DNA of 55,402 nt. Origin: Candidatus Thioglobus sp. REDSEA-S12_B1. Its GTDB lineage: Bacteria; Pseudomonadota; Gammaproteobacteria; PS1; Pseudothioglobaceae. How positions within the stretch are numbered: the stretch's first letter is position 1; each line of letters begins with the position of its first letter. Below the pieces are notes generated by a model. That model did not search any database. It saw only the letters and a program-made list of their open reading frames with translations, and was not told the origin of the DNA. The DNA is taken from the NCBI GenBank assembly GCA_001628405.1, contig LURN01000017.1, positions 1-55,402 on the forward strand, in the 5' to 3' direction. Of this stretch, positions 4,547-55,402 are shown piece by piece. Both the position numbers and the translations under genes were made by a program.

Positions 4547-4595
4547 GTTTCGTTATTTAACACCCTAATAGAGCCATCTTATACCATAAAGTAAG

Positions 4596-6337: not shown

Positions 6338-6354
6338 ATCTAGATTAATTTCAT

Positions 6355-8576: not shown

Positions 8577-8720
8577 AATAATGTATCACAATAATATATG
8601 TTTTAGACCTCTCATTTTCAATGTCTTTTCATGAAAATCTGTATTTCGTTAGATTTAATAATATTATGAAGATATTACTCTAATAAGGTATATTTGAACC
8701 AAACTTTAATTGGCTGATAA

Positions 8721-11309: not shown

Positions 11310-11404
11310 ATTGAATTTATTTAAATCTGTAAAACAAAATATTAACCATTGACTTCTCTTTTCATAATTTACAATAGTCATTTTTAGATTTTAGATTATT
11401 CAAT

Positions 11405-38234: not shown

Positions 38235-39575
38235 ATGTCATTACCAAGTCAAGCTGAATACGTTATTGTTGGTGCAGGAATACATGGTCTATCTACCGCA
38301 TGGCGTTTAGCTGAGCGTTTAACTGAATCTGGAGAGTCTGTTGATGGAAGAATCATCATTCTAGATAAATCTGGAATTTCAGCAGGAGCCACAGGAATCG
38401 CTTGCGGCGTTGTTCGTAATAATTATTTTCAACCAGCAATGCGCAAGCTCATGGCTCACTCCGTCAGTATTTGGGAGAGCGATCCTGAAGCATTTAGTTA
38501 TCATCCGGTTGGATATATGCAAATTTCTCCAGAGAGCATGAGAGAGGATGTTAAGCAGATCCATGCTGAGCAGCAAGAAATTGGCTATGAGAGTGTCTTT
38601 ATTGAAGGGGAAGACGAGTCTCGTGAGTACATGCTGAATATGTTTGACGATTGGCAGGCTGAAGGTATTACTTCGGTTCTGCATGAGAAAAAAGGCGGCT
38701 ACGCTAATAACACTAAAGCTATGTATGGCTTAGCTAAAAAGGTTGAGGCATTAGGTGTAAGAATTATTACTGGAGTTGAAGTTACTGGTTTTACACAGGG
38801 TGATGATGGTTCTGTCTCTGCCGTTGAAACCGATCAAGGCGCAATTGCTTGTGATAAAGTTGTTATTGGAGCTGGACCTTGGGTCAGAGATTTTTGGAGT
38901 ATGCTCGATTTGCCTTCTCAGATAGAAGTCAAAGATCTTGATGGCAATGTTCATCAAGACGTCGACATGTGGCGTTTTTGGCAGCTTGAAGAGGGTGTTC
39001 TAAGGGTTGAGCCTGAACTATTAAAAACGAATGATGGTGAAATGCCACCAGTTCTTCACGTTGATACCGATGCACCTCTATATTCGACTGTTGATGGTTC
39101 ATTGATTACAGATCAAATGTGGGGTATCTATTACAAGCCTGACTGGCATTTTGGTGGAATTCAAGGTGGCGCGTCACCTTACGAGATTAAAAAGCCAGCT
39201 GAAGAAGTTGCCATTGATCCGTATGGTCCGTCTAGCCCAGAGTTTGTTTCAGGTCCTGAGTTTGCCCATATGTGGGTATCAGCCCTCGCTCATTGTCACA
39301 AGAGGTTTGAAGGCACGATGCCAAAATATCATAAAGAGCCTTCTGGAGGTGTTGGTTGCTTTACAGCTGACAGCTTCCCTGTTATTGATACTTTTCACAA
39401 CAATGTTACGATCATTGCAGATAGTAACCATGGTTATAAAATGATCGGAGTTGGCTGCCTAGTTGCAGAAGAATTGTTGGGACAAAAGCAAGATTTATTA
39501 GAGCCATTCAGATTTAGTCGCTTCAAAGAGGGTAAATTACACCCAGTTTCTAATAGCCCTTACCCTTGGAGTTAA
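38235..39575 (+). CDS. FAD-dependent oxidoreductase (SoxB/DAO family paralogue)
   Basis: 446 aa. The dinucleotide-binding motif 'EYVIVGAGIHGLSTAWRLAE' is at the N-terminus and a C-terminal 'GYKMIGVGCLVAEELLG' fits the DAO fold. It resembles the beta subunit of sarcosine oxidase and the next gene's product, but is more divergent and longer. Amine oxidation of an N-methylated amino acid, such as dimethylglycine, sarcosine or N-methylglutamate, is a reasonable guess. It ends three bases before soxB and belongs to the same operon. Four-subunit sox or mgd operons do not normally begin with this extra flavoprotein. Confidence 0.75.
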   Translation: MSLPSQAEYVIVGAGIHGLSTAWRLAERLTESGESVDGRIIILDKSGISAGATGIACGVVRNNYFQPAMRKLMAHSVSIWESDPEAFSYHPVGYMQISPESMREDVKQIHAEQQEIGYESVFIEGEDESREYMLNMFDDWQAEGITSVLHEKKGGYANNTKAMYGLAKKVEALGVRIITGVEVTGFTQGDDGSVSAVETDQGAIACDKVVIGAGPWVRDFWSMLDLPSQIEVKDLDGNVHQDVDMWRFWQLEEGVLRVEPELLKTNDGEMPPVLHVDTDAPLYSTVDGSLITDQMWGIYYKPDWHFGGIQGGASPYEIKKPAEEVAIDPYGPSSPEFVSGPEFAHMWVSALAHCHKRFEGTMPKYHKEPSGGVGCFTADSFPVIDTFHNNVTIIADSNHGYKMIGVGCLVAEELLGQKQDLLEPFRFSRFKEGKLHPVSNSPYPWS

Positions 39576-39578
39576 ATT

Positions 39579-40841
39579 GTGAGTAAAACTCGTTATTCTG
39601 CCTTTAAGGTTGTTAAAGAAGCATTAACTGGCCACAAAGGCTGGGAGCCAACCTGGCGAGATGCTGAGCCAAAAGCTGACGGATACGATGTAATCATTGT
39701 TGGCGGCGGAGGCCACGGCTTGTCGACAGCTTATTACTTGGCGAAAAATCATGGAATCACCAACGTTGCAGTCCTTGAAAAGGGATGGATTGGTGGAGGT
39801 AATGTTGGCAGGAATACAACCATTATCCGTTCAAACTATCTGCTTCCAGGAAACGAGCCTTTCTATGAATTGTCGATGCAGCTTTGGGAGAATCTCGAGC
39901 AAGATTTAAACTACAACGCGATGGTTTCTCAAAGAGGAATCATGAACCTAATCCACTCAGACGCTCAGCGAGACGCCTTCATTAGAAGAGGTAACGCGAT
40001 GCTTTTTGCTGACGCTGGTTGTGAATATATTGAGGCCAAAGAAGTTAAAGAGAGGTACCCATTCTTAGATATGGACAATCCACGCTTTCCAATCAAGGCA
40101 GCGCTAGCTCAGCCTCGAGGCGGAACAGTCAGGCACGACGCAGTTGCCTGGGGTTATGCAAGGGGTGCAAGTGATTTAGGTGTTGATATTATTCAAAACT
40201 GTGAAGTCACTGGATTCAATATTGAGAATGGAAAATGTCTTGGGGTTCAAACCTCGAAAGGTGAAATTAAAGCTGGCAGGGTGGCTGTCTGTGTTGCAGG
40301 GTCATCTGGAAGGGTGATGGCAAAAGCAGGCATTAAGTTGCCGATTGAAAGTCACGTACTTCAGGCTTTTGTCACTGAAGGGTTGAAGCCGGTTATGGAT
40401 AACGTGATTACGTTTGGTGCTGGACACTTTTACTGTTCTCAGTCGGACAAAGGCGGACTCGTCTTTGGTGGTGACATTGATGGCTACAACACTTACGCTC
40501 AGAGAGGTAACCTACCGGTTGTAGAAGATGTATGCTCTGGAGGAATGGCGATTATGCCATCAATCGGTCGCGCAAGACTGCTTAGAATGTGGGGCGGAAT
40601 CATGGATATGTCAATGGACGGTTCACCGTTTATTGATAGCACAGAGGTTGAAGAGCTATTCTTTAATGGCGGTTGGTGTTACGGAGGATTCAAGGCGACT
40701 CCTGCAAGCGGCTACTGTTACGCACACTTACTGGCAACGAATCATTCTCACGAAGTTGCATCAGCCTACAAGCTGGATCGATTTAGGAGAGGTGCTATCA
40801 TTGATGAGAAGGGCGTTGGCGCTCAACCTAACTTACACTAA
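39579..40841 (+). CDS. soxB: Sarcosine oxidase beta subunit / N-methylglutamate dehydrogenase subunit A
   Basis: 420 aa, GTG start. FAD site 'DVIIVGGGGHGLSTAYYLAK' at about residues 37-56, and 'GGTVRHDAVAWGYARGA' (His at about 186), which matches the histidine carrying covalent FMN in the SoxB of heterotetrameric sarcosine oxidase. This subunit oxidises the N-methyl amine. The same family is MgdA in the N-methylglutamate pathway. With gmaS and mgsABC upstream, N-methylglutamate is the favoured substrate, sarcosine the alternative. Cotranscribed with soxD, soxA and soxG. Confidence 0.85.
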   Translation: MSKTRYSAFKVVKEALTGHKGWEPTWRDAEPKADGYDVIIVGGGGHGLSTAYYLAKNHGITNVAVLEKGWIGGGNVGRNTTIIRSNYLLPGNEPFYELSMQLWENLEQDLNYNAMVSQRGIMNLIHSDAQRDAFIRRGNAMLFADAGCEYIEAKEVKERYPFLDMDNPRFPIKAALAQPRGGTVRHDAVAWGYARGASDLGVDIIQNCEVTGFNIENGKCLGVQTSKGEIKAGRVAVCVAGSSGRVMAKAGIKLPIESHVLQAFVTEGLKPVMDNVITFGAGHFYCSQSDKGGLVFGGDIDGYNTYAQRGNLPVVEDVCSGGMAIMPSIGRARLLRMWGGIMDMSMDGSPFIDSTEVEELFFNGGWCYGGFKATPASGYCYAHLLATNHSHEVASAYKLDRFRRGAIIDEKGVGAQPNLH

Positions 40842-40853
40842 GGAGGACAAGAC

Positions 40854-41144
40854 ATGATCATTAATCATCCACTGCTAGGTCCTCGAGATTCAGAAGAATT
40901 CGTCTATCTTGGGTCAACTGACCTCATCAATAGACCAACAAATTGGGAGGATGAGGCTTCAGCAGAAGACTTCTATCAGTATCAATACATCAGAGAAAAT
41001 GTTGCTGGTGATCACAAAGAGCTCTGGTACCACGAGCAGGGTGACCAGTCATGGCTGGTGGTCACAAGGAATACGCTAACACACGAGATTACGAATGTTG
41101 AGCTTGCTCAAGACGTCTCAAGGGCAATGGGTAGAGGAAAATGA
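40854..41144 (+). CDS. soxD: Sarcosine oxidase delta subunit / MgdB, without the zinc cysteines
   Basis: 96 aa in the normal soxD position. The family motifs 'GPRDSEEFVYLG' and 'ELWYHEQGDQSWLVVTRNTLTHEI' are recognisable. Characterised SoxD binds zinc through CxxC near the N-terminus plus His and Cys later. Here the N-terminal pair is replaced by His and Leu ('NHPLLGPRD'), and the later Cys is Asp ('YHEQGD'); only the His of WYH is kept. Zinc binding is probably lost or altered. A good AAGGAGGA site precedes the ATG, and the stop overlaps soxA by four bases. Confidence 0.85.
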   Translation: MIINHPLLGPRDSEEFVYLGSTDLINRPTNWEDEASAEDFYQYQYIRENVAGDHKELWYHEQGDQSWLVVTRNTLTHEITNVELAQDVSRAMGRGK

Positions 41145-44104
41145 GTCAGATAAACAGAAAAGATGGCGGCTTAATCAATAAGGATAAAACGATAACCTTT
41201 ACCTTTAACGGACACATTTTAAGGGGTTACGAGGGTGATACGCTCGCCTCAGCTTTGCTTGCAAATGATAAGCACTTGGTTGGCAGATCGTTTAAGTACC
41301 ATCGTCCGCGTGGCATCGTCACTGTGGGCTCGGAAGAGCCAAACGCCATTATGGAGATTGGGAGTGGCGCATACAAAGAACCCAACACGCGCGCAACCGT
41401 AACCCAGCTTTACAATGGTTTAGAAGCAAACAGTCAGAACCATAGAGGTCCTCTCGGTTTTGATTTGATGGCGATTACAGATTTCTTCTCACCGATGCTC
41501 GGTGCGGGCTTCTACTATAAGACCTTTATGTGGCCGAAGGCTTTCTGGGAAAAGATTTATGAGCCAGCCATTAGAAACTCAGCAGGACTCGGTACGCTTG
41601 CTAAACAGCCTGACCCTGATACCTATGACAAAGGTTTTAGATACTGCGACATTCTTATTATTGGAGCTGGAGCCTCAGGCTTGTCAGCTGCCCTAACTGC
41701 TGCAAGCTCGGGCGCCAAAGTCATCCTGGCTGATGAAGACTTTTTGATGGGTGGGCGCTTAAATTCTGAGACCGCGAAGATTGATGGTATCTCAGGAAGC
41801 GAATGGGCAAAGAACGCAGTTGATAAGTTGAGCGCAATGGACAACGTGACCTTGATGGCAGATACAACTATTTTTGGTGTCTACGACCACGGCATATACG
41901 GCGCACTCGAAAACAGGTCCTCTGAGTCGAGAGAAGACTCCAAGAAGCCTAGACAGGTGAACTGGAGAATCTATGCGAAAAGGTCTATCCTCTGCGCGGG
42001 AGCCATTGAGCGCTCAATCGCCTTTGGAAATAATGATCGCCCAGGAATTATGCTCGCTGGGGCTGTCAGGTCCTACATGAATAGATTTGCAGTTGCGACA
42101 GGTCAAAAAGTAACGGTTTATACGAACAATGATGACGGCTGGCAAACTGCAAAAGATCTCAGAGCAAAGGGAGTGAAGGTCGTTGCGGTCATTGACTCAC
42201 GCTCCATCAGTCCGGTGATGGGAATTCAGGGCGCTGAAATCTTTATGGGGACTGATGTAATAGACACAAAGGGCAGAAGAAGACTCAAGTCAATCAAGCT
42301 CTCAAATGGAAGAACGATCGATACCGATTCACTCGCAGTCTCTGGAGGATGGAACCCGAATTTACACTTAACATGCCACCACAGAGGTATCCCGAAATGG
42401 AATGAAGATATTGCTTCTTTTGTTCCTGATGACAAGGCGCCTCCTGGAATGTCGGTTGCCGGAAGAGCAAAAGGAACGATGGTCCTTAATGACGCAATCA
42501 AAGAGGGTCATGATCTCGGTTCATCTGTTGCACAGGATTTGGGCTACAAGGCTTCAGATCTGGAGCCTGCGACTACGCCATCGGTTGCTTACAATATTGT
42601 CGCTAACTGGGGAGTCCCGAGCGGAAAGAATCGTGCCTGGGTTGACTTCCAAAATGACGTCACAGCGAAAGACGTTAAATTAGCTAACCAAGAAGGTTTC
42701 AAATCAGTTGAACATGTCAAGAGATACACCACTCTAGGTATGGCGACTGATCAAGGCAAAACTGCCAACGTTTTAGGTATCGGAATCATGGCTGAAAACA
42801 TGGGTCAGACCATGGAGGAGACAGGAACGACGATCTTTAGACCGCCATACTCTCCAGTCGCAGTTGGAGCCTTTGCTGGAAGAAGAAGAGGGATGGAGTT
42901 CTATCCTACACGCTACACTCCGAGCCACAAATGGTCAGAGGAGCAGGGCGCAGTATTTGTTGAGGTAGGTATGTGGTATCGTTCACAATGGTTTCCTCAG
43001 CCCGGAGAGACCCACTGGCGTCAATCCGTAGACCGTGAGGTCATTCAAACGCGATCTTCTGTCGGTATCTGTGATGTGACAACCTTAGGAAAAATTGATA
43101 TTAAGGGTTCAGATGTCTCTGAATTCTTGAACAAAGTTTACGTCAACGCTTTTGCAAAATTACCAGTGGGCAAAACGAGATACGGCCTAATGCTCAGAGA
43201 AGACGGCATGGCTATGGATGATGGAACGACAGCTAGGCTGGCTGAAGACCACTTCGTGATGACGACAACGACCGCAAACGCAGTCAGCGTATACCGTCAC
43301 CTACAGTTCTGTCATCAAGTGCTCTGGCCTGATCTGGATGTGCACATGATCTCAGTGACAGAGCAGTACGCACAGTATGCTGTAGCAGGACCAAACTCTC
43401 GTAAACTTTTAGAGAAGATTGTGGACCCTGAGCATGATATTTCAAACGAAGGGTTTCCGTTTATGGCTGCTGCAGAAATTTCGGTTTGTGGTGGAGTACC
43501 TGCAAGACTCTTTAGGATTTCTTTTTCGGGTGAATTGGCATACGAAATTGCAGTTCCAACTCGCTATGGTGATTCATTGATGAGAGTCATGATGGAGGCT
43601 GGCAAAGAGTTTAATGTTGTTCCTTATGGAACTGAAGCTCTTGGTGTTATGAGAATTGAAAAAGGGCACGCGGCAGGTCCAGAATTAAACGGACAAACGA
43701 GTGCGTATGATCTGGGAATGGGCGGAATGGTCTCAGGTAAAAAAGACTTTATTGGATACAAGCTCGGATTGAGAGAAGAGTTGCAGCGTAGTGACCGTAT
43801 GCAGATGGTTGGCTTCAAGCCAGTCAACAAAGGAGACCTTGTTGATAAGGGACACTCAATGGCTGGTGCTCATTTACTAGGTCTTAGAGACGAGCCAACT
43901 ACTGAAAATGACCAGGGCTGGATCTCTTCATCGATCTACTCACCAATGCTAGGTTGCTATATTGGACTTGGTTTTATAAAAGATGGACTAAACAGAAAAG
44001 GTGAATTTGTCCGAGCAGTTGATTTAGTTAGAGGGAGTGATATAGAGGTTGAGATTTGTAGTCCACACTTCTATGATCCTGAAGGAGGGCGTTTACGTGA
44101 GTGA
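41141..44104 (+). CDS. soxA: Sarcosine oxidase alpha subunit / N-methylglutamate dehydrogenase subunit C
   Basis: 987 aa. The N-terminus is the SoxA module of ferredoxin-like fold ('YEGDTLASALLANDKHLVGR', 'FKYHRPRGI'). A dinucleotide-binding domain follows ('ILIIGAGASGLSAALTAA', about residue 172). The C-terminal ~380 residues are a GcvT-like folate-binding domain ('RSSVGICDVTTLGKIDIKG', 'ISFSGELAYEIAVPTRYG', 'YGTEALGVMRIEKGHAAG'). It transfers the methyl carbon released by SoxB to tetrahydrofolate as methylene-THF, which FolD can use. Full family length. Confidence 0.9.
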   Translation: MSQINRKDGGLINKDKTITFTFNGHILRGYEGDTLASALLANDKHLVGRSFKYHRPRGIVTVGSEEPNAIMEIGSGAYKEPNTRATVTQLYNGLEANSQNHRGPLGFDLMAITDFFSPMLGAGFYYKTFMWPKAFWEKIYEPAIRNSAGLGTLAKQPDPDTYDKGFRYCDILIIGAGASGLSAALTAASSGAKVILADEDFLMGGRLNSETAKIDGISGSEWAKNAVDKLSAMDNVTLMADTTIFGVYDHGIYGALENRSSESREDSKKPRQVNWRIYAKRSILCAGAIERSIAFGNNDRPGIMLAGAVRSYMNRFAVATGQKVTVYTNNDDGWQTAKDLRAKGVKVVAVIDSRSISPVMGIQGAEIFMGTDVIDTKGRRRLKSIKLSNGRTIDTDSLAVSGGWNPNLHLTCHHRGIPKWNEDIASFVPDDKAPPGMSVAGRAKGTMVLNDAIKEGHDLGSSVAQDLGYKASDLEPATTPSVAYNIVANWGVPSGKNRAWVDFQNDVTAKDVKLANQEGFKSVEHVKRYTTLGMATDQGKTANVLGIGIMAENMGQTMEETGTTIFRPPYSPVAVGAFAGRRRGMEFYPTRYTPSHKWSEEQGAVFVEVGMWYRSQWFPQPGETHWRQSVDREVIQTRSSVGICDVTTLGKIDIKGSDVSEFLNKVYVNAFAKLPVGKTRYGLMLREDGMAMDDGTTARLAEDHFVMTTTTANAVSVYRHLQFCHQVLWPDLDVHMISVTEQYAQYAVAGPNSRKLLEKIVDPEHDISNEGFPFMAAAEISVCGGVPARLFRISFSGELAYEIAVPTRYGDSLMRVMMEAGKEFNVVPYGTEALGVMRIEKGHAAGPELNGQTSAYDLGMGGMVSGKKDFIGYKLGLREELQRSDRMQMVGFKPVNKGDLVDKGHSMAGAHLLGLRDEPTTENDQGWISSSIYSPMLGCYIGLGFIKDGLNRKGEFVRAVDLVRGSDIEVEICSPHFYDPEGGRLRE

Positions 44105-44666
44105 TTATGAATTATTAGCAGAGTCGCCTCTTGGCGGCGTTGAAATAGAGCTTGATGGCTTTACTATAACTGAGGTTACAGATAAGTCCTTAGTGATGGT
44201 TGCTCTTCCTAGAGATAAGTTCAGTGATATTGAATCTTCAATTAACAAGTCTTGCGGACTCAAGCTACCAGAGATGCAAAATTCTACCAATTCGAAGGAT
44301 TCCTCAATAACGCTTTGGCGTCTGCAAAAAAATCAAGTTTTGGCTTACTTTTCTTATGAAGGGGATGACGCTGAGTCACACCTTTCTGAGCGTTTATCTG
44401 CTCCCGCATACTATACAGATCAATCTGATACATGGGCGATGATCAGAGTTAGCGGTAACAGAAGTAGAGACGTCCTTGAGAGAATATGTCCGATTGATCT
44501 TAGCCCCGAGGTATTTTCAGTTGGAAACGTTTCTAGAACAGTTATGGAGCATATAGGAACAGTCATTTATAGAGACGGCGATGATTCATACGTTCTCTTA
44601 ACAATGCGTTCATTTGGCCGCTCTATGCTTCACGCGATAGAAGTCTCTGCTGATAACGTTCTTTAA
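44097..44666 (+). CDS. soxG: Sarcosine oxidase gamma subunit / MgdD
   Basis: 189 aa. The start is GTG at 44097, eight bases inside soxA and right after GAAGGAGGG; a longer frame beginning at 44049 lies within soxA and is rejected. The protein starts 'MSDYELLAESPLGG', and 'DTWAMIRVSGNRSRDVLERICPIDL' and 'RSFGRSMLHAIEVSA' are typical for the SoxG family, distantly related to the folate-binding GcvT fold. Last gene of the operon; it converges with the HMG-CoA-lyase-like gene 14 bases away. Confidence 0.85.
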   Translation: MSDYELLAESPLGGVEIELDGFTITEVTDKSLVMVALPRDKFSDIESSINKSCGLKLPEMQNSTNSKDSSITLWRLQKNQVLAYFSYEGDDAESHLSERLSAPAYYTDQSDTWAMIRVSGNRSRDVLERICPIDLSPEVFSVGNVSRTVMEHIGTVIYRDGDDSYVLLTMRSFGRSMLHAIEVSADNVL

Positions 44667-44680
44667 AGAGTTAAACGTTG

Positions 44681-45610
44681 CTATGCCAAAGAAGACCCAA
44701 GAGGTAGCCCAGCGTTTGGTGTAAAACCATATAACTCTACATCCGGTAATGCTCTAGCAACTACATCTCTGGCATCTAAAAGCTTATCAAAATCAATACC
44801 CGTTTTGAGTCCCATCGCCTCTAGCAAAAAAACTAGATCCTCAGTCACTATATTTCCGCTAGCACCTGGAGCTGCAGGGCAGCCACCAATACCTCCCATA
44901 GATGAGTCAACTGTAGTTAATCCTACCTCCACCGCAGCCAAAACATTAGCCAAACCTTGACCACGAGTATTGTGCAGATGAATTCCCGTAAGATGATCAC
45001 GACCAATTGCATCCCAAACCTTTCCAATGAGTCGCTTAACCTGAACAGGATTGGCATAACCGGTTGTATCGGAGAGGCCAACCTCACTGCATCCTGCCTC
45101 CATTAATGCCTCCGCCAGCTCAACGACCCGATCCTCCGAAATGCTGCCTTCAATAGTGCAGCCAAATGCGGTTGAGAGTGCACCTTCAATTAAAGGCCTC
45201 TCATCGATTGGAAGATCTCTAATTAGCTCGACTATTCGCTTCACTTCATCCAGCATCTGGTCATGTGTTCGATTGACATTTCTCATGCTGTGAGTCTCAC
45301 TGACAGATAGAGGAATGGTCAGCTTATCTACTCCTGCCAGTATGGCATTTTCAGCTCCTTTTAGGTTTGGAACTAACGCAGCCACTTTAAGGCCTTCAAT
45401 AGTTTTAGCAAACTTTGCGATCTCCATTGTATCGGCAAGCTGAGGAAAAATACGAGCTGGAACAAATGAACCGACTTCTATCTCTGGAATACCCGCTAAA
45501 GCCAAAGCCTCAATCCAACGCTTTTTAGACTCCGTGGACATGATTTGACTAATACTTTGAAGCCCATCTCTAGGGCCAACTTCACTCACCTCAATGTCGA
45601 TTTTATTCAT
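44681..45610 (-). CDS. Hydroxymethylglutaryl-CoA lyase-like enzyme
   Basis: 309-aa TIM-barrel of the HMGL-like family. Landmarks are 'EVGPRDGLQ' at the N-terminus, 'GIHLHNTRGQGLAN' (metal-binding histidines near 207-209) and 'GGIGGCPAAPGASGNIVTEDLV' region with the catalytic cysteine near 240. The usual aromatic residue after GGCP is Ala here. HMG-CoA lyase splits HMG-CoA into acetyl-CoA and acetoacetate. Next to a class III CoA-transferase, and without leucine-pathway genes, it more likely cleaves another 3-hydroxyacyl-CoA in this operon. Separated from the upstream gene by 134 bases, so it could have its own promoter. Confidence 0.82.
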   Translation of the reverse strand: MNKIDIEVSEVGPRDGLQSISQIMSTESKKRWIEALALAGIPEIEVGSFVPARIFPQLADTMEIAKFAKTIEGLKVAALVPNLKGAENAILAGVDKLTIPLSVSETHSMRNVNRTHDQMLDEVKRIVELIRDLPIDERPLIEGALSTAFGCTIEGSISEDRVVELAEALMEAGCSEVGLSDTTGYANPVQVKRLIGKVWDAIGRDHLTGIHLHNTRGQGLANVLAAVEVGLTTVDSSMGGIGGCPAAPGASGNIVTEDLVFLLEAMGLKTGIDFDKLLDARDVVARALPDVELYGFTPNAGLPLGSSLA

Positions 45611-45744: not shown

Positions 45745-46941
45745 TTATATCGCTTTTTGCTCTTTAAGGGTTTTGATTTCAGTATTTGTCATGCCAAGTT
45801 CACCCAGAATCTCGTCAGTATGCTCTCCAAGCATTGGAGGCGGGTTATCAACAGTTGGTGCTTTTCCATCTAGCTTGATACCTGTTCGAGTAATTTGAAT
45901 ATCTCGACCTACTCCCGGAACATCGGAATAAGTACCTACCATTCCTCGCTCTGCAATCTGTGGTTGAGCAAGCGCCTCTGGCACGGTTAATATAGGGCCG
46001 CAGGGGACTCCTACGTCGTTTAATAATTCAGTCCACTCATCTGTTGAACGAGTCATCAGGGTTAAGTTGAGAATCTCAGAGAGCTCACTACGATTTTCGA
46101 GTCGTGCCTCTCTGGTAGCAAATTTAGGGTTTTCAAGCAGCTCATTAAGGCCTAAGACCTGACACGTTGCTTCAAACTGCTCCTGTTTATTAGCAGCAAT
46201 ATTCATTTGGCCATTGCTAGTTCTGAATGTCCCCGATGGGCTACTCGTAAAATTTTCATTACCCATCGCTTGAGGTTCTTTATTAGCGTTAAAGTAGTTT
46301 GAAATCTGAAAACCCATCGTACACATGACAGACTCAAGCATCGAAACATCTATAAAGGTTCCGCGTTGGCCATCTTGTTTTGCTAGTGCTGCTGAAATTG
46401 CGAAGGCAGCGGTCAAACCTCCAATGGTGTCAGCGATAGGGTAACCCACCCTTAGAGGGGCTGATTCTTTATCACCTGTAATATTCATAGTGCCTGACAT
46501 GCCTTGAATGATTTGATCATATGCTGGGCGACTCTTTAACGAGCCTTCTTGTCCAAAGCCTGATATTGCGCAATAAACTAGATCTGGATTCAAATCTTTA
46601 AGTACCTCGTAGCCAACACCAAGACGATTCATTACTCCTGGCCTGAAGTTTTCGACCACGACATCAGCAGTTTTGACTAAGCGCTTAAATACATCGACAC
46701 CCTCTGCTGACTTAAGATTAATGGTAATTGAGCGCTTACCTGAGTTTTGAGCGAGAAAAGTAGCACCCATAAGTTTTTGATTGAGCTCACTATCCAAACC
46801 CAACTGCCTAGCTAAATCACCCCTAACAGGTACTTCAATTTTTATTACCTCTGCTCCAAGATGAGCTAATTGACAAGCGCAGAATGGTCCAGAAAGCACA
46901 TTTGAAAGATCAAGTACACGATACCCCGCTAGAGATTTCAT
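45745..46941 (-). CDS. Class III CoA-transferase (CaiB/BaiF family)
   Basis: 398 aa. Family landmarks are 'VLDLSNVLSGPFCACQLAHLGAEVIKIE' region at the N-terminus, 'VENFRPGVMNRLGVGYE' and the catalytic aspartate in 'SRPAYDQIIQGMSG' (about residue 140). It moves CoA from a donor such as succinyl-CoA to a carboxylic acid. The start overlaps the aldehyde dehydrogenase stop by four bases, so coupling is tight. In this operon it would activate the acid made by the aldehyde dehydrogenase for cleavage by the lyase-like enzyme. The acid is not identified. Confidence 0.85.
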   Translation of the reverse strand: MKSLAGYRVLDLSNVLSGPFCACQLAHLGAEVIKIEVPVRGDLARQLGLDSELNQKLMGATFLAQNSGKRSITINLKSAEGVDVFKRLVKTADVVVENFRPGVMNRLGVGYEVLKDLNPDLVYCAISGFGQEGSLKSRPAYDQIIQGMSGTMNITGDKESAPLRVGYPIADTIGGLTAAFAISAALAKQDGQRGTFIDVSMLESVMCTMGFQISNYFNANKEPQAMGNENFTSSPSGTFRTSNGQMNIAANKQEQFEATCQVLGLNELLENPKFATREARLENRSELSEILNLTLMTRSTDEWTELLNDVGVPCGPILTVPEALAQPQIAERGMVGTYSDVPGVGRDIQITRTGIKLDGKAPTVDNPPPMLGEHTDEILGELGMTNTEIKTLKEQKAI

Positions 46942-48431
46942 GATTCCTCCTTTTTAGAATTTAAGCGTTTGCCATAATTTGCATGAACCACCTTTGTGTT
47001 TGTAAAGAATTCACGGCAATAACTACTCTTTTCAGGTGGTCCAAATGATGAATTTTTACGACCAGTAATTGGGGCGTGAAAATCCATACCAGCAGTTGGA
47101 AGATTAATCTGCACCATTCCAGAATTTATATTGGCTATAAAGTGATCAATTATCGAGCGATCATTTGTAACAATACCTGCTGAAAGACCAAATTCTGTGT
47201 CATTTGCGATTGAAAGCGCCTCATCGTAATCACTTACAGACATTACGGCAGCAATTGGTCCAAAAATCTCTTCACGACAAATCTTCATCTCGCTCTTAGC
47301 ACCAGTAAAAAGTGCTGGCGATAAATACCACCCAGGTGTCTCCTGTTCAACTTGAAGCCCACCCGTTAAATGCTTGGCACCATCATTCAAACCAACCCGA
47401 AGATACTCAAGGTTTTTCTTTAGTTGAGCCTCACTAACAACGGGACCTATATCTGTTTTTGGATTTCGAGCATCTCCAATTCTAAGAAGCTCCATACGTT
47501 TCAACATTGCATCAACAAAAGAGTCATGAATATTTTCAGTGACAATGAGTCGAGAAGATGCAGTGCATCGTTGTCCACAAGAAAAGAATGCACCATTGAT
47601 TGCGTATTCGACAGCTTTATCGAGGTCAGCATCATCAAGCACAATGAGTGGATTCTTACCGCCCATTTCAAGCTGTATCTTGCCGCCTCGTGCAAATACA
47701 CTGGCGCCAATCTTGCGACCAATACCTGAAGAGCCAGTGAAGGTGACGCCTGCCACATTTGGGTGTTCAACTATAGCAGCGCCTGTTTCCGAGCCTTGTC
47801 CCATCAATAGGTTAAATACGCCATCTGGGAGACCTGCTCTAGAAATAATCTCTGCAAGAGCCCATGCAGAACCACATACCAGTTCAGAAGGTTTGAAAAC
47901 AACGGTATTGCCATAAGCAAGCGCTGGTGCAATTTTCCATGCAGGAATCGCCAATGGAAAGTTCCAGGGTGTTATGGCAGCAACTACACCGATTGGTTCG
48001 CGCTGAACCTGAAGCGATACGCCTTCCCGAAGTGAACGATAACCCTCTGTATCAGAGCGATAAACTTCAGCTGCAAAAAACTTAAAGAGGCTACCCGCAC
48101 GATGAGCCTCAGCCACCGCTTCTTTGAGTGTTTTTCCCTCTTCGCGAGCTAAAAGGTCGCCTAATTCCTCTTTACGTTGAATAATCTCCGTGCCGATTGC
48201 ATCAAGAATATCAAATCTCTCTCCAGAAGTGCTGGATGACCATGCTGGTAGTGCACTCATTGCTGCCAAAACTGCATCTTGAACGTCGTCTTTTGTGGCA
48301 ATTGCGTAACTAGCGATTACATCATTTGTGTCGGATGGATTGATATTTTGGATGTGATTTGAACTATTACGCCATTCACCTGCAATGAAGTTATGTTTTG
48401 TTTCTTGATCATTGTTATGTTGAATAGTCAT
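46938..48431 (-). CDS. Aldehyde dehydrogenase (alpha-ketoglutaric semialdehyde dehydrogenase-like)
   Basis: 497 aa when started at the ATG 48431, which overlaps the upstream stop (ATGA) and follows AGAGGAA; a longer frame reaching 48458 is less likely. NAD(P)-aldehyde dehydrogenase landmarks: 'PWNFPLAIPAWKIAPAL', 'FTGSSGIGRKIG', general base Glu in 'LEMGGKNPLI' and catalytic Cys in 'SCGQRCTASSRL'. The C-terminal 'FHAPITGRKNSSFGPPEKS' resembles semialdehyde dehydrogenases that make 2-oxoglutarate. It would oxidise an aldehyde produced from the amine left after urea removal. Substrate is inferred only. Confidence 0.88.
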   Translation of the reverse strand: MTIQHNNDQETKHNFIAGEWRNSSNHIQNINPSDTNDVIASYAIATKDDVQDAVLAAMSALPAWSSSTSGERFDILDAIGTEIIQRKEELGDLLAREEGKTLKEAVAEAHRAGSLFKFFAAEVYRSDTEGYRSLREGVSLQVQREPIGVVAAITPWNFPLAIPAWKIAPALAYGNTVVFKPSELVCGSAWALAEIISRAGLPDGVFNLLMGQGSETGAAIVEHPNVAGVTFTGSSGIGRKIGASVFARGGKIQLEMGGKNPLIVLDDADLDKAVEYAINGAFFSCGQRCTASSRLIVTENIHDSFVDAMLKRMELLRIGDARNPKTDIGPVVSEAQLKKNLEYLRVGLNDGAKHLTGGLQVEQETPGWYLSPALFTGAKSEMKICREEIFGPIAAVMSVSDYDEALSIANDTEFGLSAGIVTNDRSIIDHFIANINSGMVQINLPTAGMDFHAPITGRKNSSFGPPEKSSYCREFFTNTKVVHANYGKRLNSKKEES

Positions 48432-49138
48432 AGTAATTCCTCTAAAACAGGTCGCCAACCAATATCCTCATGCCGATGATCAAAGGTATTTAAGTAAAAA
48501 CACTGACCGGCCTCGTAACCTCGACAACAACGAGCATTGTCCCGGTTTAAATATGGCATTGAAGTCCAGCTGTATGCACCAGCCCAATTCCAGAATTGAT
48601 TATGCGGTGCTTGAAGTACCTCATCACTTAAGACTCCAATCTTATCATTGGATGTCAATGATGGCAAACCCTTAATCGTTTCTCCACCAGAGACAAAACG
48701 ATCCCATTCGTTATCAGCTGGAAGAGCGCCGCTTAGACCATTATCCTCATCATAAAAATCATTACCTCCAGTCATTAATCGACATTTATAGTTTTTTCCA
48801 TCAATGACGATCATTTTTCCATCAACATATCCCGCATCATATAAATCTTGCCAACTAACGCGAACAAGAATCATGCGATCGCAGATATAAAGACGGCGAG
48901 TATTGTCACTAAGAACAATCCAGTTTAATGTATTTTTAGGATTGCTTGAGGTATCTCCCAACCACCATCGACTCCAATCAGGACTAGGCTCAAACTCTGC
49001 AATATTGCCAGGTTTCATACCCTTATAGGGTACTGGTAATATAGAGAAATCAACAACCCATGGGCGAGTCGGAAGGGGCTGAGGCTCTTTGTCATGATAT
49101 AGAGAGCCAAAAGATTTAATACCTTCAAAAATGTGCAT
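48428..49138 (-). CDS. Unrecognised 236-aa protein in the ureohydrolase operon
   Basis: The ATG at 49138 is chosen; a TTG two codons earlier (49144) is possible. The protein is soluble, without signal peptide, and tryptophan- and aspartate-rich ('DWSRWWLGDTSSNPKNTLNW'). It has a Cys-Cys pair and a third Cys in 'NARCCRGYEAGQCFYL' and ends 'DIGWRPVLEELL'. The C-terminal 'R-C-C-R-G ... G-W-R-P-V' layout weakly recalls formylglycine-generating (SUMF1) or lectin-like folds, but I cannot assign a family. It is locked between the catalytic ureohydrolase gene (about eight bases away) and the aldehyde dehydrogenase gene (overlap), so it must work with them. Confidence 0.8.
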   Translation of the reverse strand: MHIFEGIKSFGSLYHDKEPQPLPTRPWVVDFSILPVPYKGMKPGNIAEFEPSPDWSRWWLGDTSSNPKNTLNWIVLSDNTRRLYICDRMILVRVSWQDLYDAGYVDGKMIVIDGKNYKCRLMTGGNDFYDEDNGLSGALPADNEWDRFVSGGETIKGLPSLTSNDKIGVLSDEVLQAPHNQFWNWAGAYSWTSMPYLNRDNARCCRGYEAGQCFYLNTFDHRHEDIGWRPVLEELL

Positions 49139-49146
49139 AATCAATT

Positions 49147-50133
49147 TTACTCGCCAGTTTGGAACATATACTTACGAAGAGTGCGCAAGAGTAGATGTCC
49201 AGCAATTTGTTGTGTGCGTCCTGAAGGGTCAAGTGGTGGGCAGGTTTCTACAATATCCAGCCCATCAAATGGTGCTTCAGAGAGAATATCAAGCATTTGG
49301 CAATATTGTCTTGGAGTAATCCCACTATGAACAATTGACCCTGTACCAGGTAAATAGCCAGCATCCATAGCATCAATGCAAAGAGAAACATATAGGCTTT
49401 CGCATCCTCTTGTTGCATGCTCAATAGCAAGCTCCATAACTTTGGCGGATCCAAGGCGATGAACATCCTGAGAAGAGAAAACCTTTCCTCCCATACTCTC
49501 AATTAACTCATACTCGCCTCCATCAATCCAGCCTGAAATGCCAATCCAAACCATATTTGCTTGAATAATATTAGAGACTTCAGTAATGCGTCGACCATTA
49601 GTAGCATGATTGTATTTACCCCACGCTCCAAGACGATTTGTAAAATCTAAGTGTCCATCAACCTGGATGTAGCCAAACTTTCGATTTGGATCCCGATCTA
49701 AAAGACCTCTTGAATAACCAAGGCAGGAAGGGTAACCGTTGTAGTGGTCTCCTCCTAATGCAAGAGGTATTCCTCCATTAGCAGTAATTGCTCTTGTCAT
49801 AGAAGCTATTGATTCAGTTGTATCCTCAACACTATCAGGGAAAATATCAGCGTCACCACAATCAATAATCCAATCATCTTGTCGTTTTCGAAGTACACTT
49901 TTCAGAGTAGGGTCGAACAATTCAGTTTGATCATTTGGTGTAGATTTGGATATTTCTGTTGTTGCTGCTCTAAGTGCGTCTGGACCAAAACGAGTTCCAA
50001 TACGGCTAGAATGCGTCCAATCAGATGGCATCCCAACGACTCCAAGAACTCCCGGTTTAACCTGTTCTGGTGACCCTAGTGGTGCTCCAAACAGAGAGGA
50101 GGCAACAGTATTCATTTTTGGATAATTTGACAT
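49147..50133 (-). CDS. Ureohydrolase (agmatinase/arginase family), probable catalytic member
   Basis: 328 aa. Arginase-fold metal ligands: His130 in 'LGGDHYNG', Asp159, His161 and Asp163 in 'QVDGHLDF', and Asp254 in 'SLCIDAMDAGYLPGTG'. The first Asp of the usual SxDxD motif is Cys252 here, so five of six canonical ligands are present. N-terminal 'FGAPLG' and 'SRIGTRFGPDALR' match agmatinases. It should hydrolyse a guanidino compound to an amine plus urea using two metal ions. It is the last of four paralogous genes and the only one likely to be active. The substrate could be agmatine, a guanidino acid or guanidine. Confidence 0.85.
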   Translation of the reverse strand: MSNYPKMNTVASSLFGAPLGSPEQVKPGVLGVVGMPSDWTHSSRIGTRFGPDALRAATTEISKSTPNDQTELFDPTLKSVLRKRQDDWIIDCGDADIFPDSVEDTTESIASMTRAITANGGIPLALGGDHYNGYPSCLGYSRGLLDRDPNRKFGYIQVDGHLDFTNRLGAWGKYNHATNGRRITEVSNIIQANMVWIGISGWIDGGEYELIESMGGKVFSSQDVHRLGSAKVMELAIEHATRGCESLYVSLCIDAMDAGYLPGTGSIVHSGITPRQYCQMLDILSEAPFDGLDIVETCPPLDPSGRTQQIAGHLLLRTLRKYMFQTGE

Positions 50134-50155
50134 AAATTAAAGTTTTCTCCTTTGT

Positions 50156-51151
50156 TTAATGACCATTAGATTTGAAATCGTTAATAAGTCCCAGGCGTGA
50201 ACAGAGGTATCCAACCAGCGCAGTAACGATTAGACGCTGGCCAGTTTTTACTATGCTTAGTCCATTGACTGTTGGGTTATGACCCGTCAAAATTAGGGTG
50301 GCTATAGGCGCTTTGGCAATTGCCACTAAAACTCGCCTTAACAGTTTTAGGCTCATTCCGTCAAATACTGGCTTATCCGACATGCCATGAAGCTCTGAAG
50401 ATACTGATGATAGGTCAAGGTTAACAATGACTGGTAGATTACGTTTCGATAATGTTTGGCTTAAATCTGCAATCTCATTAGAGTCCATGTCACTGAGTTG
50501 GCTCGATGAAAATATTTTTGCGCTAGCGCCTCTAAGCTCCTTTAAAAATTCTACAGAAGGATTCTCAGAAGGGGCAAGGATACATGTATCTTTCAGTTTA
50601 ACTTCTCCGCTTGATAACAGAGAAGCAAGTGGTACAGAAGTTTCTTGACTCAGCTCTGTATTCGAAGTACCTGGCGTTTTCCCACCAATCTGAATATATG
50701 CGGCAGACTTACCTTTTGCAATGCCTCTTGAAACTGGAGCAATAATGCTGCTATCTCCGCCAAGGACAATGCTCGTTGCATTGCGCTTATAGACTTCTTC
50801 AATTGAACGAGTAATTAGCTCATCAGCTTTGGATTTAGTTTGTCCTAAAATTGGAATATCTCCAAGATCAAACAGTTGTTCGTTGATTGATGATGTGTCA
50901 AACAACTCTAGCTCATCAATATTAATTGGATTACTGAATTGTGGATTGGCATACCAACCGAAATAGACTGACGTTTCTCTTATTGCCAAAGGCGAAAAGC
51001 GTGCGCCAGATTTTAGATTGTTACTATCTTCCATCGGAGCACCAATGACTGCTAGTGATCCAGATGATAAATCCTCAAAATTTGCCCTAACTGACCTCAT
51101 AAATGACAAATGGCCGGCCATACGTGGAATTGGAGCGGTTCTTAGTGGCAT
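50156..51151 (-). CDS. Ureohydrolase-fold paralogue, predicted inactive
   Basis: 331 aa. The fold is recognisable from 'LAVIGAPMEDSNNLKSGARF' near the N-terminus and 'IVLGGDSSIIAPVSRG' at about 128-143. The metal site is lost: the motif His is Ser134, the DxHxD region reads 'QIGGKTPG', and only Asp246 of the later SxDxD survives ('NLDLSS'). It is therefore a pseudoenzyme by sequence, kept as an intact full-length gene. It overlaps the preceding gene by ten bases. Likely a structural or regulatory partner of the active paralogue. Confidence 0.75.
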   Translation of the reverse strand: MPLRTAPIPRMAGHLSFMRSVRANFEDLSSGSLAVIGAPMEDSNNLKSGARFSPLAIRETSVYFGWYANPQFSNPINIDELELFDTSSINEQLFDLGDIPILGQTKSKADELITRSIEEVYKRNATSIVLGGDSSIIAPVSRGIAKGKSAAYIQIGGKTPGTSNTELSQETSVPLASLLSSGEVKLKDTCILAPSENPSVEFLKELRGASAKIFSSSQLSDMDSNEIADLSQTLSKRNLPVIVNLDLSSVSSELHGMSDKPVFDGMSLKLLRRVLVAIAKAPIATLILTGHNPTVNGLSIVKTGQRLIVTALVGYLCSRLGLINDFKSNGH

Positions 51152-52080
51152 AAGGCACTCTCCTTAGACATTGCTTCAATCACGCTCCTAATAATCTCGA
51201 TAACAGTGAGGCTCGCAGCGCTGCCCGAAAGATCTAGGTCCGGTATAAATCCAGTAACATCAGCACCTATGATGGGTAGCTTTCCAAGTTCAGAGATGAC
51301 TGAAGCTAGCTGCTCCGGCGAAAGACCAGTTCCAAGGTATGGAGAATTAGAGCGAATAGAAGGTAATGCAAGAACATCGACATCTACACTAAGATAAACG
51401 CCAACCTCTTGGTCTTGCAGATCATCGACTATCTGTTCGGATAATCCTGTTAAGGATTTTGAAAGTTGATGAGCAGAACGAACAAAGCCATCAGTTAAAT
51501 ATTCATACTCCTCTATGGAGCTTAAATCACTAACACCAAGCATTGCAATTGATCTTGCACCACCGCAGAATTCAGCAATTTGCCTTGTTGCAGATGACCG
51601 ATTCATTGGGTTTTTTTGAGTATCTAGGATTTCTGATGCATCCAGATTGCGTGAAATTCGAATAAATTTCAAATGACAATCAGGATTTGCCTTTAACTGC
51701 CCAGATACCAAAGCAGGAATGAGGCTATAGTCTCCACCCAATGCGAGAAGTCTAGCACCGGTTTGTTGAATCCTATAGCTTTGTTCTTCTAAAATTGACT
51801 GCGTTTTTATAGGCTCAATTGGAAAAACATTCAACTCACCAACGTCAATAATGTTGCTAGGAGTAGAAATTTTGAGGCCATTAGCTAACAACGGAAGAGA
51901 CGCATACCTTAATTGTCTTGCAGCATATCTCGCGCCTGGCTCGCCCTCAGAAAAATGGTCACAGAATAGCCCTGCAACAGCTATTTTTTTCTCTGAAAGG
52001 TCTTCAATATCACCAATTGGAGCACCAAAAAAAGATGGTACTGACTGCATTGATAGGTTTAAGTCGACTGTACTCATCAC
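51142..52080 (-). CDS. Ureohydrolase-fold paralogue, predicted inactive (partial metal site)
   Basis: 312 aa. 'FFGAPIGDIEDLSEKKIAV' and 'LALGGDYSLIPALVSG' define the fold. The first ligand His is Tyr118, and the DxHxD motif reads 'SRNLD' (Ser143, Asn145, Asp147). The later 'LSVDVDVLALP' keeps both Asp233 and Asp235. Three of six ligands remain, too few for the usual two-metal centre. Its stop and start overlap the neighbouring genes, so it is translated together with them. It may bind one metal ion or none. Confidence 0.75.
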   Translation of the reverse strand: MMSTVDLNLSMQSVPSFFGAPIGDIEDLSEKKIAVAGLFCDHFSEGEPGARYAARQLRYASLPLLANGLKISTPSNIIDVGELNVFPIEPIKTQSILEEQSYRIQQTGARLLALGGDYSLIPALVSGQLKANPDCHLKFIRISRNLDASEILDTQKNPMNRSSATRQIAEFCGGARSIAMLGVSDLSSIEEYEYLTDGFVRSAHQLSKSLTGLSEQIVDDLQDQEVGVYLSVDVDVLALPSIRSNSPYLGTGLSPEQLASVISELGKLPIIGADVTGFIPDLDLSGSAASLTVIEIIRSVIEAMSKESALCH

Positions 52081-53039
52081 GAAATATCCTCAAAAAGCCT
52101 CTCGCCGAGTATTGCTAATAGCGCCTCAGCGCTAGCGTATTGAGAATGACCTCGAGCATCAAGTGAAGGCGCAACATTTGATACACAAACACCTACTAAC
52201 TTTTCAGCAAAATTAGTTTTAGAAAGAATATCAATTAACTGCAAAGGTGATAGACCGCCGACGTTTAGACTCGGTGTTCCTGCTGCATATCCAGTATCCA
52301 AAACTCCAGCATCTACTACGCACAAAATTTGCTTGTTCTGAAGAGAGAATTGTTGAATCTCATTTGAGGCAGCTTCTATACCCTGATCATGAATATCATC
52401 AGCGGAAATAATGTTTCCATGAATCATTTTTATTTCCTTCCAGTTTTCATGAGGTTGGATGCCATTTACACCTATAGCTAGCAGAGGATAACTATCAGAG
52501 CTAGGCTTCGATGTGAGAAGCGTTGAAAGTGCTTTAGAGTGTAGATTGTTTGCTTCTGGTAAATCTAATCGGTTTGAAAAAACAAGCAGTCCAAGCTCAG
52601 GTAAAGAGCTCTGGAGGCCATTAATAAATCCCTCTAGAATTCTTCCATCTCCCCCAAGCAGAACTGGCAGTCCACCCTGATTATTAACCCCGGCAGTTAA
52701 TTTTTGAACTTGTGTTAAAGTCTCCGATGTAACTTCAGTACAGTCTGCAAGGTCTCCAAGATCTATCCCAACCGCTTCACTTCTAAATCGAGTAGTCTTT
52801 CCTGTGTCAATTGATACGACCGTCTTTGATGGAGAATTAAAGTAACAAGATAGGGCATTCATAGTGGCCTGTCTTATAGCTTTGGGACCCTTTGAACATC
52901 CACTTCTTCGAGGCAAAGTAGAGTCAACAGGCGCACCAAAAACAACAATGCTCCCTTGAGAAACCTTTTCTAGATTTCTTTCAGGAAACCCAGCAAATGT
53001 TGCGCTGGTAGTTGTAGATTCTCCAAAATTTTTAGACAT
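52077..53039 (-). CDS. Ureohydrolase-fold paralogue, predicted inactive
   Basis: 320 aa, first of the four ureohydrolase-like genes. 'SIVVFGAPVDSTLPRRSGCSKGPKAIR' region and 'LPVLLGGDGRILEGFI' define the fold. The ligand His is Gly132, the DxHxD motif is 'SNRLD' (only Asp159 kept), and in 'CVVDAGVLDTGYAAGT' Asp243 remains while the second Asp is Gly245. Interestingly 'LDTGYAAGTPSLNVGGLSP' after it is close to active agmatinases. Its stop overlaps the next start (ATGA). Predicted non-catalytic. Confidence 0.75.
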   Translation of the reverse strand: MSKNFGESTTTSATFAGFPERNLEKVSQGSIVVFGAPVDSTLPRRSGCSKGPKAIRQATMNALSCYFNSPSKTVVSIDTGKTTRFRSEAVGIDLGDLADCTEVTSETLTQVQKLTAGVNNQGGLPVLLGGDGRILEGFINGLQSSLPELGLLVFSNRLDLPEANNLHSKALSTLLTSKPSSDSYPLLAIGVNGIQPHENWKEIKMIHGNIISADDIHDQGIEAASNEIQQFSLQNKQILCVVDAGVLDTGYAAGTPSLNVGGLSPLQLIDILSKTNFAEKLVGVCVSNVAPSLDARGHSQYASAEALLAILGERLFEDIS

Positions 53040-53096: not shown

Positions 53097-53912
53097 TCAT
53101 GACTGGTCCTTATTTTGATTTTTATTAAAAATAAGTACGGTAACTAAAGCACTGACAGAAACAAAAATTAGACAGGTTGAGATTGCAGCAATTGTTGGAT
53201 CAACCTGATCTCGCAAAGAATTGAACATTCTTCTTGTAATCGTAGCATTTTCTCCACCCGAAACAAACATCGAAACAACTACCTCATCTAATGATGTAAT
53301 AAATGCAAGCAGCGCCCCTGTTTGGATTGAGAACTTAACTTGGGGGAGTGTAATAGTTAAAAGAGCTCTTGGACGAGACGCACCTAGACTTCGTGCAGCA
53401 AGCTCTTGATTAAAATCATAATTCTTTAAACCTGCAAGTACAGTAATAATTACAAATGGAACCGCCAATGAAGTATGAGCAATAACAATTCCAGTGATTG
53501 TGTAATTCAAACCAAGTTTGGCATAAAGATGAAATACACCTATCGCAATCAGTATGACCGGCACTAGAATAGGAACAACAACAATTAGCTGAGAAGCATT
53601 TCTAACGCGTGCTGATGTAAATGTTAATCCATAGGCTGCTATTGATCCTAATGGAGTGGCTATAATTGTGGTCAAAAAGGCAACGAGCAATGAAGTTCTG
53701 GTTGATCTCATCCACTCACTCGAGCCAAAATAAGACTCATACCAACGAAATGACCAAGACTCAGGAGGAAATTCTAAGTATGAGGCTCCAGAAAATGACA
53801 TTGGAATTACAATAAATGTCGGAAGTGCAAGAAAGAAAAGTATGCAAACTCCAACAAATCCCAGCCAGAGATTGTTATTTCTTCGCTTACCTACCATTTC
53901 GATTGCAGCCAT
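53097..53912 (-). CDS. Polyamine-type ABC transporter permease (PotC/PotI-like)
   Basis: 271 aa with about six transmembrane segments. The permease coupling loop is 'EQ..LAARSLGASRPRALLTITLPQVKFSI' in form (about residue 165-195), and 'LAFITSLDEVVVSMFVSGGENATI' at about 205 is typical of PotC/PotI. It begins five bases after the partner permease. Systems of this type import putrescine, spermidine and related cations, and some take up other amino compounds. A guanidinium cation would fit the downstream ureohydrolases. Confidence 0.88.
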   Translation of the reverse strand: MAAIEMVGKRRNNNLWLGFVGVCILFFLALPTFIVIPMSFSGASYLEFPPESWSFRWYESYFGSSEWMRSTRTSLLVAFLTTIIATPLGSIAAYGLTFTSARVRNASQLIVVVPILVPVILIAIGVFHLYAKLGLNYTITGIVIAHTSLAVPFVIITVLAGLKNYDFNQELAARSLGASRPRALLTITLPQVKFSIQTGALLAFITSLDEVVVSMFVSGGENATITRRMFNSLRDQVDPTIAAISTCLIFVSVSALVTVLIFNKNQNKDQS

Positions 53913-53917: not shown

Positions 53918-54814
53918 CTACCTCATGAACAATTTATCAATACCAAAGGCTCGGTTGAAAATCCAAATTATCGCAAATGCTAAAACCAGAAGAACTACAC
54001 CCAGCGCGCTCGCTGCGCCCCAGTTCGAATAGAGCATTATGGTTGAATCTATTCGTTGAGCAAGCATCTGTATTTTTCCACCTCCAAGCAAGGCCGGTGT
54101 TACATAAGTGCCTAATGCAAGAACAAATACCAGCACTGTGCCGGCAAAAAAACCAGGCAAAGACATTTTGAAGAAAACCCGCCAGAAAGCTCCTCGAGGT
54201 GTTGAACCTAGACTAATTGCGGCTCTAATAAAATTGTTATCAATTGAGCGCATTGAGGCGAATAGAGGAAGAATAAAGAATGGTAATAAAATATGCACCA
54301 TACCAATAATACTTCCGGTTAGATTATGAGCTAACTGAAGAGGTTCATCTATCCATCCGATTGAAAGAAGTGTGTCGTTGATAATTCCATTGCGTTGAAG
54401 AATTACCAGCCATGCATACGTTCTAACAAGGATTGAGGTCCAAAATGGCAACAAAACAAAAATCATCAGTATGCTTGCTAATCTGTCAGGAAGTTGTGAC
54501 AACCAATAACACAATGGGTAGCCAAGAAGTATGCAAAAGAATAAGGTAATAAAACTTATTTTAAGAGTAACTATGAATGTCTTGATATAGAGTTGGCTTT
54601 GAAAAATACGTTCATAATTCTCCCAAGAAAAGTCACCTGCACGGTCAAAAAATGAAAGGGATGATAGCCAGAATACTGGAATAAATACAACAATCAGAAT
54701 AGTGATAAGTGAAGGAAGTGATAAATTAAAAAACAACCGACCTTCTTTTCGACGTGCTTTTGCAAGTGCCGTGCTATTAAGACCTTCTAATTGATTGTTG
54801 GTAGCTAAATTCAT
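53918..54814 (-). CDS. Polyamine-type ABC transporter permease (PotB/PotH-like)
   Basis: 298 aa with a polar N-terminus (~30 residues) and about six transmembrane segments. '[22 protein letters not shown]' and the coupling loop '[25 protein letters not shown]' (about residue 190-215) are characteristic of PotB/PotH. The start overlaps the ATPase stop by four bases. It forms the membrane channel with the next gene's product. Confidence 0.88.
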
Positions 54815-55402
54815 TCAATACTACCCTCAACAATAATGACATCATCAGCATGAAGACCAAGATGTATTGGTTTACCTACATCTGGAATAATATTACTACT
54901 TTGTGACTTGTTAGCAGGTAATCTGACACTAATTTTAATATTATCTCCAAGATCTACCATTACTAGCACGCTTTCTCCCTGATAAACCGATGCACTGACT
55001 ATTCCGGAAAGATCATTCAAAGAATCATTCTTTGAGTTAGACATCACTAGTAGTTCAGGTCGAATAACAAGGCAGTGTGGATTCTCACCTTTAGGTTGAG
55101 GATTTGTCATCTTTATGGGCTTGCCACGAAGAGCAAGTCCATTGTTTGAATTCTCTAATTGAAGAAGAACTGATTCCCCAATAAAATCAGCAACAAATAG
55201 GTCATTAGGATTATCATAAAGAGCCTTAGGAGCGTCCACTTGAACAAGACGTCCATTATTAATAACCGCGATACGATCGGACATAGTCAATGCTTCTCGC
55301 TGGTCATGCGTTACATAAACAATAGTTGCTTCAAGTTTTTGATGAAGTGCCTTGAGTTCAATTTGCATGTGCTCTCGTAACTTTTTATCCAAGGCGGAAA
55401 GA
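54811..55402 (-). CDS. Polyamine-type ABC transporter ATPase (PotA/PotG-like, 5' end outside window)
   Basis: The C-terminal ~197 residues are present. Reading begins inside the ABC domain at the D-loop ('LSALDKKLR'), followed by the H-loop '[20 protein letters not shown]' and then a TOBE-type domain ('[12 protein letters not shown]', '[19 protein letters not shown]', ending near '[15 protein letters not shown]'). The rest and probably the binding-protein gene lie beyond base 55402. First visible gene of the minus-strand operon. Confidence 0.88.

Follow-up and report, generated by a model that had tools for sequence, protein, structure and literature searches.

The window analysed here is a stretch of 55,402 nucleotides from contig LURN01000017.1 of Candidatus Thioglobus sp. 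REDSEA-S12_B1, and its minus strand carries four consecutive genes of the ureohydrolase (arginase/agmatinase) superfamily, termed U1, U2, U3 and U4 in operon order. It is probable that the four products make up one obligate hetero-oligomeric ureohydrolase, in which U4 would be the catalytic subunit, U1–U3 three distinct pseudo-subunits, and the substrate a guanidino- or amidino-type cation. One mixed complex appears probable because distant bacteria carry the same four genes in an identical order, and by analogy the quartet is probably a larger version of the two-gene metformin-hydrolase kind. A hetero-oligomer of catalytic and pseudo-subunits had been put forward in an initial annotation of this DNA, and it is kept as the best reading. 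That annotation also held that no operon of this form had been described. No paper on a four-gene ureohydrolase operon was found in the open-access literature, but the idea of an enzyme with a pseudo-subunit has already been described for two-gene hydrolases. Homology, gene order, ligand loss, purifying selection, co-occurrence and fold (by profile, with structure prediction for one shortened U2) were computed; the physical complex, its stoichiometry, capping, the metal and the substrate are inferred.

The four open reading frames and their Pfam matches bear out the four adjacent or overlapping arginase-fold genes first noticed by the initial annotation. All four proteins exceed the 22-bit cut-off of the Pfam Arginase profile (PF00491), which places each of them in the superfamily (Table 1). 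U1 and U2 overlap by 4 bases and U2 and U3 by 10 bases, and a gap of 22 bases separates U3 from U4.

Metal ligands were read from a joint alignment of 71 U1–U4 orthologues, numbered by ARG1, and the residues listed for the four genes in the initial annotation match this alignment exactly. None of the window's four proteins has the complete site of two His and four Asp; the ligand counts are five in U4, two in U1, three in U2 and one in U3. U4 retains H130, D159, H161, D163 and D254. The sixth position, for which the initial annotation gave no residue, corresponds to ARG1 D232, a bridging Asp of arginase, and is Cys252 (codon TGC) in the window. This change is fixed in all four gammaproteobacterial genomes found with the operon, and no other orthologue seen has Cys. 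Outside the gamma clade, all 15 U4 copies have the six ligands as well as the equivalents of H141 and E277. Thus the description of this gene as near-intact holds for five ligands but not for the bridging position in this clade, the full site being found in the non-gamma orthologues. The literature search found no earlier case of a D232C change in an arginase. Because the bridging Asp is replaced by Cys, the metal or the activity of U4 in the window's clade may differ from that of the six-ligand orthologues.

Loss is far more extensive in the other three proteins. U3 has only D246, the D232 equivalent, and U1 only D159 (D128) and D243 (D232), and U2 keeps D147 (D128), D233 (D232) and D235 (D234), with H101, D124 and H126 gone. 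H101 and E277 are missing from every U1–U3 copy in the alignment. All 52 U1–U3 copies have the Asp equivalent to D232, the sole ligand common to them; other invariant polar residues are K302 and R306 in U3 and D248 and R296 in U1. The most conserved stretches of U4 are mainly the metal motifs. In U3 conservation peaks at RETSVYFGWYANPQF, at the N-terminal tail (PIPRMAGHLSFMR) and at the C-terminal stretch VKTGQRLIVT; the peaks include the tail and the C-terminal helix rather than active-site motifs. Shortened forms are found in Roseobacteraceae and Hyphomicrobiales (U1 of ~256–277 aa, U2 of ~221–234 aa), and the deletions include parts around the old site. An AlphaFold2 model of a 224-aa Ruegeria U2 orthologue (predicted local distance difference test score, pLDDT, 81; predicted template modelling score 0.83) superimposes on the ureohydrolase 1gq6 with a Z score of 22.0 and a root mean square deviation of 2.6 over 210 residues. 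The shortened U2 is thus predicted to retain the ureohydrolase fold though the site is gone.

A scan of GTDB species genomes with the U4 alignment gave 18 loci. A search for the same gene order in other genomes, which the initial annotation had proposed, finds complete U1-U2-U3-U4 sets in the same order and on the same strand in 16 genomes, distant groups included (the window, L028, L032, L033, L034, L035, L036, L038, L039–L042 and L045–L048). The hosts are marine Gammaproteobacteria together with Ruegeria (L040, L041), Pelagimonas (P. varians, L039), Methylobacterium (L045 and L046, both metagenome-assembled genomes, MAGs), Hyphomicrobiales and other Alphaproteobacteria. In L042, U1 matches weakly and along only part of its length (4e-6), and it was assigned by its place and the alignment. 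Three further loci are partial at contig ends. In L037, a Firmicutes MAG, and in L044, U2-U3-U4 are visible and the contig ends cut the rest, and in L043, U4 lies at a contig edge and three adjacent Arginase matches are on another contig of the same genome (G507). U1–U3 are found with U4 wherever the contig permits. In L034, L036 and L038 the quartet is present without an importer, and therefore the quartet itself is the unit. Chance or an assembly artefact is ruled out, as the same gene order recurs in distant bacteria and in independent assemblies, including those of Pelagimonas varians and Ruegeria strains.

U3 and U4 also keep company in wider surveys. The genomes with U4 (E<1e-100) and those with U3 (E<1e-70) are the same three of 296 Roseobacteraceae and the same two of 385 Alphaproteobacteria; each count includes the query genome. 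The system is rare, since an evenly drawn sample of 398 Pseudomonadota had U4 only in its own genome. U1 orthologues are present in three of 29 sampled genomes of the window's genus, its own included, and most lack the operon. Plasmids gave no U4 match at E 1e-50.

In a tree of 80 sequences with supports from the Shimodaira–Hasegawa-like approximate likelihood ratio test (SH-aLRT), a single branch separates each of U1, U2, U3 and U4 from the rest (SH-aLRT 97, 99, 100 and 100, respectively), and the sub-clades of the four match. The distance matrices of the four subunits are correlated (r 0.88–0.96; Mantel p 0.0005, the least possible with 2000 shuffles). What the trees indicate is long joint inheritance of the four subunits, not binding. 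The rate of change in U1–U3 is roughly double that in U4.

The ratio of nonsynonymous to synonymous substitution rates (dN/dS) was calculated pairwise over three genomes by the NG86 method. Between the window and the same-genus genome G006, where dS of U1–U4 is 0.70–0.95, dN/dS is 0.163 for U1, 0.143 for U2, 0.127 for U3 and 0.076 for U4; the permeases, CoA-transferase, lyase and dehydrogenase of the operon give 0.03–0.07. U1–U3 lie well below 1, far from neutrality, and at the sequence level they are under purifying selection, though constrained less than U4. That the degenerate copies are maintained, as had been surmised, is therefore upheld by ratios of 0.13–0.16, orthologues in many distant genomes and mirror-like trees.

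Possible earlier states of the family can also be seen. A Dehalococcoidia MAG (L049, positions 2553–11971) has nine tandem ureohydrolase genes, with metal sites complete in some and partly lost in others. The gene at 8937 scores best with the U3 profile (179.5 bits), that at 5752 with U1 (168.7 bits) and that at 9965 with U4 (343.5 bits). The U1- and U3-like copies keep GGDH, D128, D232 and D234, and D124 and H126 are gone (SSQLD); from their residues they look like an intermediate state of erosion. One genome met in the survey of the Ruegeria family has a single U4-like gene inside a Pot-type ATP-binding cassette (ABC) importer operon (L064:1483-2484), which may resemble the ancestral one-gene state.

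The closest known parallels are the metformin and dimethylguanidine hydrolases, which are encoded by two genes, one for a metal-binding and one for a pseudo-subunit; where the structure is solved, the enzyme is an alpha2beta4 hexamer (PMC11399263, PMC11271267). MefH, MetCaCb, MfmAB and DmgH share with the quartet the tandem arrangement of ureohydrolase genes and the combination of one metal-site subunit with degenerate partner or partners. In the MefH/DmgH type, three to five of the six ligands of the partner are gone, yet it is essential (PMC11399263, PMC11271267); the losses in U1 (four), U2 (three) and U3 (five) are as in the metformin-hydrolase beta clade. However, the quartet has four genes rather than two and three degenerate proteins rather than one, and U4 in the window has five ligands and a Cys. 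Also, the two-gene enzymes use Ni2+ and have HypAB genes in the operon, whereas the quartet operon is without HypA/HypB-type chaperones. The U1–U4 profiles matched metformin hydrolase chains, but these ranked below guanidine hydrolase, formimidoylglutamase or agmatinase, and the profiles of U1–U3 have their nearest matches elsewhere than in MefH beta.

The nearest solved relative of U4 is the guanidine hydrolase GdmH (7esr, 5.9e-41). GdmH (7esr, 7oi1; Nitrospira 9fek) is a Ni-containing homo-oligomer of a single gene, whereas U4 occurs with U1–U3 and, judged from gene context alone, is not in the single-gene state. Agmatinase, guanidinobutyrase and 3-guanidinopropionase (1wog, 3nio, 3nip) have the same fold and represent the typical substrate class; they are homo-oligomers with complete sites. 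The arginase-like protein of T. brucei (4rhi-4rhq), which is among the matches of U2, has an arginase fold that lost its binuclear Mn site, as in the pseudo-subunits, but is a single protein. We know of no catalytic partner described for it.

A scheme for the whole system can be proposed. A PotABCD-like importer would bring in a guanidino- or amidino-type cation, and the complex would hydrolyse its C–N bond at the dimetal site of U4. U1, U2 and U3, having given up metal binding, would be obligatory structural partners, each with its own position in the oligomer and supplying interfaces. The pseudo-subunits probably form a cap or entrance over the U4 active site. A soluble MetCaCb complex requires the N-terminal 23 residues of MetCb, which cap the MetCa pocket (PMC11271267), and in the Nitrospira guanidinase an N-terminal extension lies over the neighbouring subunit (PMC11410670); by analogy, the N-terminal tail of U3 is the best candidate for capping the U4 site. 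The carbon skeleton would then pass through aldehyde oxidation, CoA transfer and cleavage by the HMG-CoA-lyase-like protein or, at several loci, by a citrate-synthase-domain protein. A more specific proposal, which we offer only tentatively, is that the three pseudo-subunits of this four-component enzyme hold fixed, non-interchangeable positions, and that in the marine gamma clade the dimetal site has come to include a Cys, with a change of metal or of chemistry.

Several points weigh against one mixed complex. Congruent trees and co-occurrence would also be expected from joint inheritance of a single operon. U4 of the window's own clade is without one canonical ligand, and its activity is not assured. 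Four paralogues are no simple fit to a trimer or hexamer, nor directly to the alpha2beta4 arrangement of MefH, and no particular stoichiometry is favoured. Lastly, HypA/HypB-type Ni chaperones are absent from the window operon and no HypA match was found in the 91%-complete genome. Urease was not found in this genome either, and this weakens the case for Ni dependence that the metformin hydrolase analogy would suggest.

It is conceivable, though improbable, that U4 alone is a working homo-oligomer and that U1–U3 moved to other jobs, such as ligand sensing or regulation of uptake, with the operon providing co-regulation. The faster evolution of U1–U3, their loss of most metal ligands and of the catalytic Glu, and the dedicated IclR regulator and importer adjoining the quartet would agree with this. 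However, wherever the contig permits, all three are found with U4, importer-less loci included, the conservation peaks of U3 include the tail and C-terminal helix, and the characterised pseudo-subunits of this fold are oligomer partners (PMC11399263, PMC11271267). There is even less to be said for U1–U3 being enzymes with new active sites built on residues that are not metal ligands. The invariant D232-equivalent Asp and the invariant polar residues of U3 and U1 might be looked at in this way, but no new constellation is common to the copies, and U1 and U2 of Roseobacteraceae and Hyphomicrobiales are without whole segments around the old site. Decay of duplicated genes, which the loss of most ligands might suggest, is rejected with near certainty by the low dN/dS, the in-frame orthologues in many distant bacteria and the tree.

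In the operon, the order on the minus strand is ABC ATPase, two permeases, U1–U4, a conserved companion termed X238, aldehyde dehydrogenase, CoA-transferase and lyase (Table 1).

Table 1. Operon genes in the window, by position
Gene or product	Coordinates	Strand	Support
HMG-CoA-lyase-like carbon-carbon lyase	44681..45610	-	NF004283 284.6 bits
CoA-transferase family III (CaiB type)	45745..46941	-	Pfam 397 bits
Aldehyde dehydrogenase	46938..48458	-	Pfam Aldedh 516 bits
X238, conserved companion, TTG start; 236 aa from an in-frame ATG two codons later	48428..49144	-	
U4, catalytic-type ureohydrolase, 328 aa	49147..50133	-	Pfam 191.9 bits
U3, pseudo-ureohydrolase 3, 331 aa	50156..51151	-	Pfam 57.1 bits
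U2, pseudo-ureohydrolase 2, 312 aa, GTG start	51142..52080	-	Pfam 88.8 bits
U1, pseudo-ureohydrolase 1, 320 aa	52077..53039	-	Pfam Arginase 108.9 bits
ABC permease, PotC-like	53097..53912	-	profile matches
ABC permease, PotB-like	53918..54814	-	profile matches
ABC transporter ATPase, leaves window at its end	54811..55401	-	88% identity to L028 ATPase

In two genomes of the same genus, G003 (L027) and G006 (L028, a single 1.7 Mb contig), the gene for a solute-binding protein and a divergent gene for an IclR regulator extend the block upstream. The importer, X238, dehydrogenase and CoA-transferase are found beside the quartet in many loci, and at several loci other than the window's a protein with a citrate-synthase C domain takes the place of the HMG-CoA-lyase-like one. 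The Firmicutes locus has a CoA-transferase (35% identity) and an HMG-CoA-lyase-like protein (41%), together with a different transporter and an alcohol dehydrogenase of the iron type.

Most quartet loci with an ABC importer also have X238. It has no match in Pfam or NCBIfam. It does match PHROG phage families, several of them called virion structural, the best (6.2e-50) being of unknown function. An invariant HRHEDIGWRP is found near its C-terminus, and its AlphaFold2 model (mean pLDDT 57) gave no convincing fold in the PDB.

At the head of the operon, an alpha/beta-hydrolase gene lies between two solute-binding-protein genes in distant hosts (L028:3628-6720, L041:1027-4005 and L035:3-3130), hinting at an ester or lactone step. 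The assignment is confirmed by Pfam in L028 and L041. A sarcosine-oxidase-type cluster on the opposite strand (38235-44666 of the window) ends beside the operon; its 987-aa alpha-like subunit has an aminomethyltransferase domain.

The first reports of enzyme and pseudo-enzyme pairs with this fold date from 2024, and in them the partner is a single gene. What is new here is the presence of three separate pseudo-enzyme partners for one enzyme gene, kept together across distant bacteria. The locus would also be an uncharacterised operon for the catabolism of a cationic nitrogen compound. Its hosts include several marine bacteria, and there are cultured carriers in Ruegeria and Pelagimonas. The family presents a graded series, from complete sites through the half-lost sites of the Dehalococcoidia nine-gene array to proteins with one ligand left and shortened forms, and is therefore a good case for how a homo-oligomer becomes an obligate hetero-oligomer.

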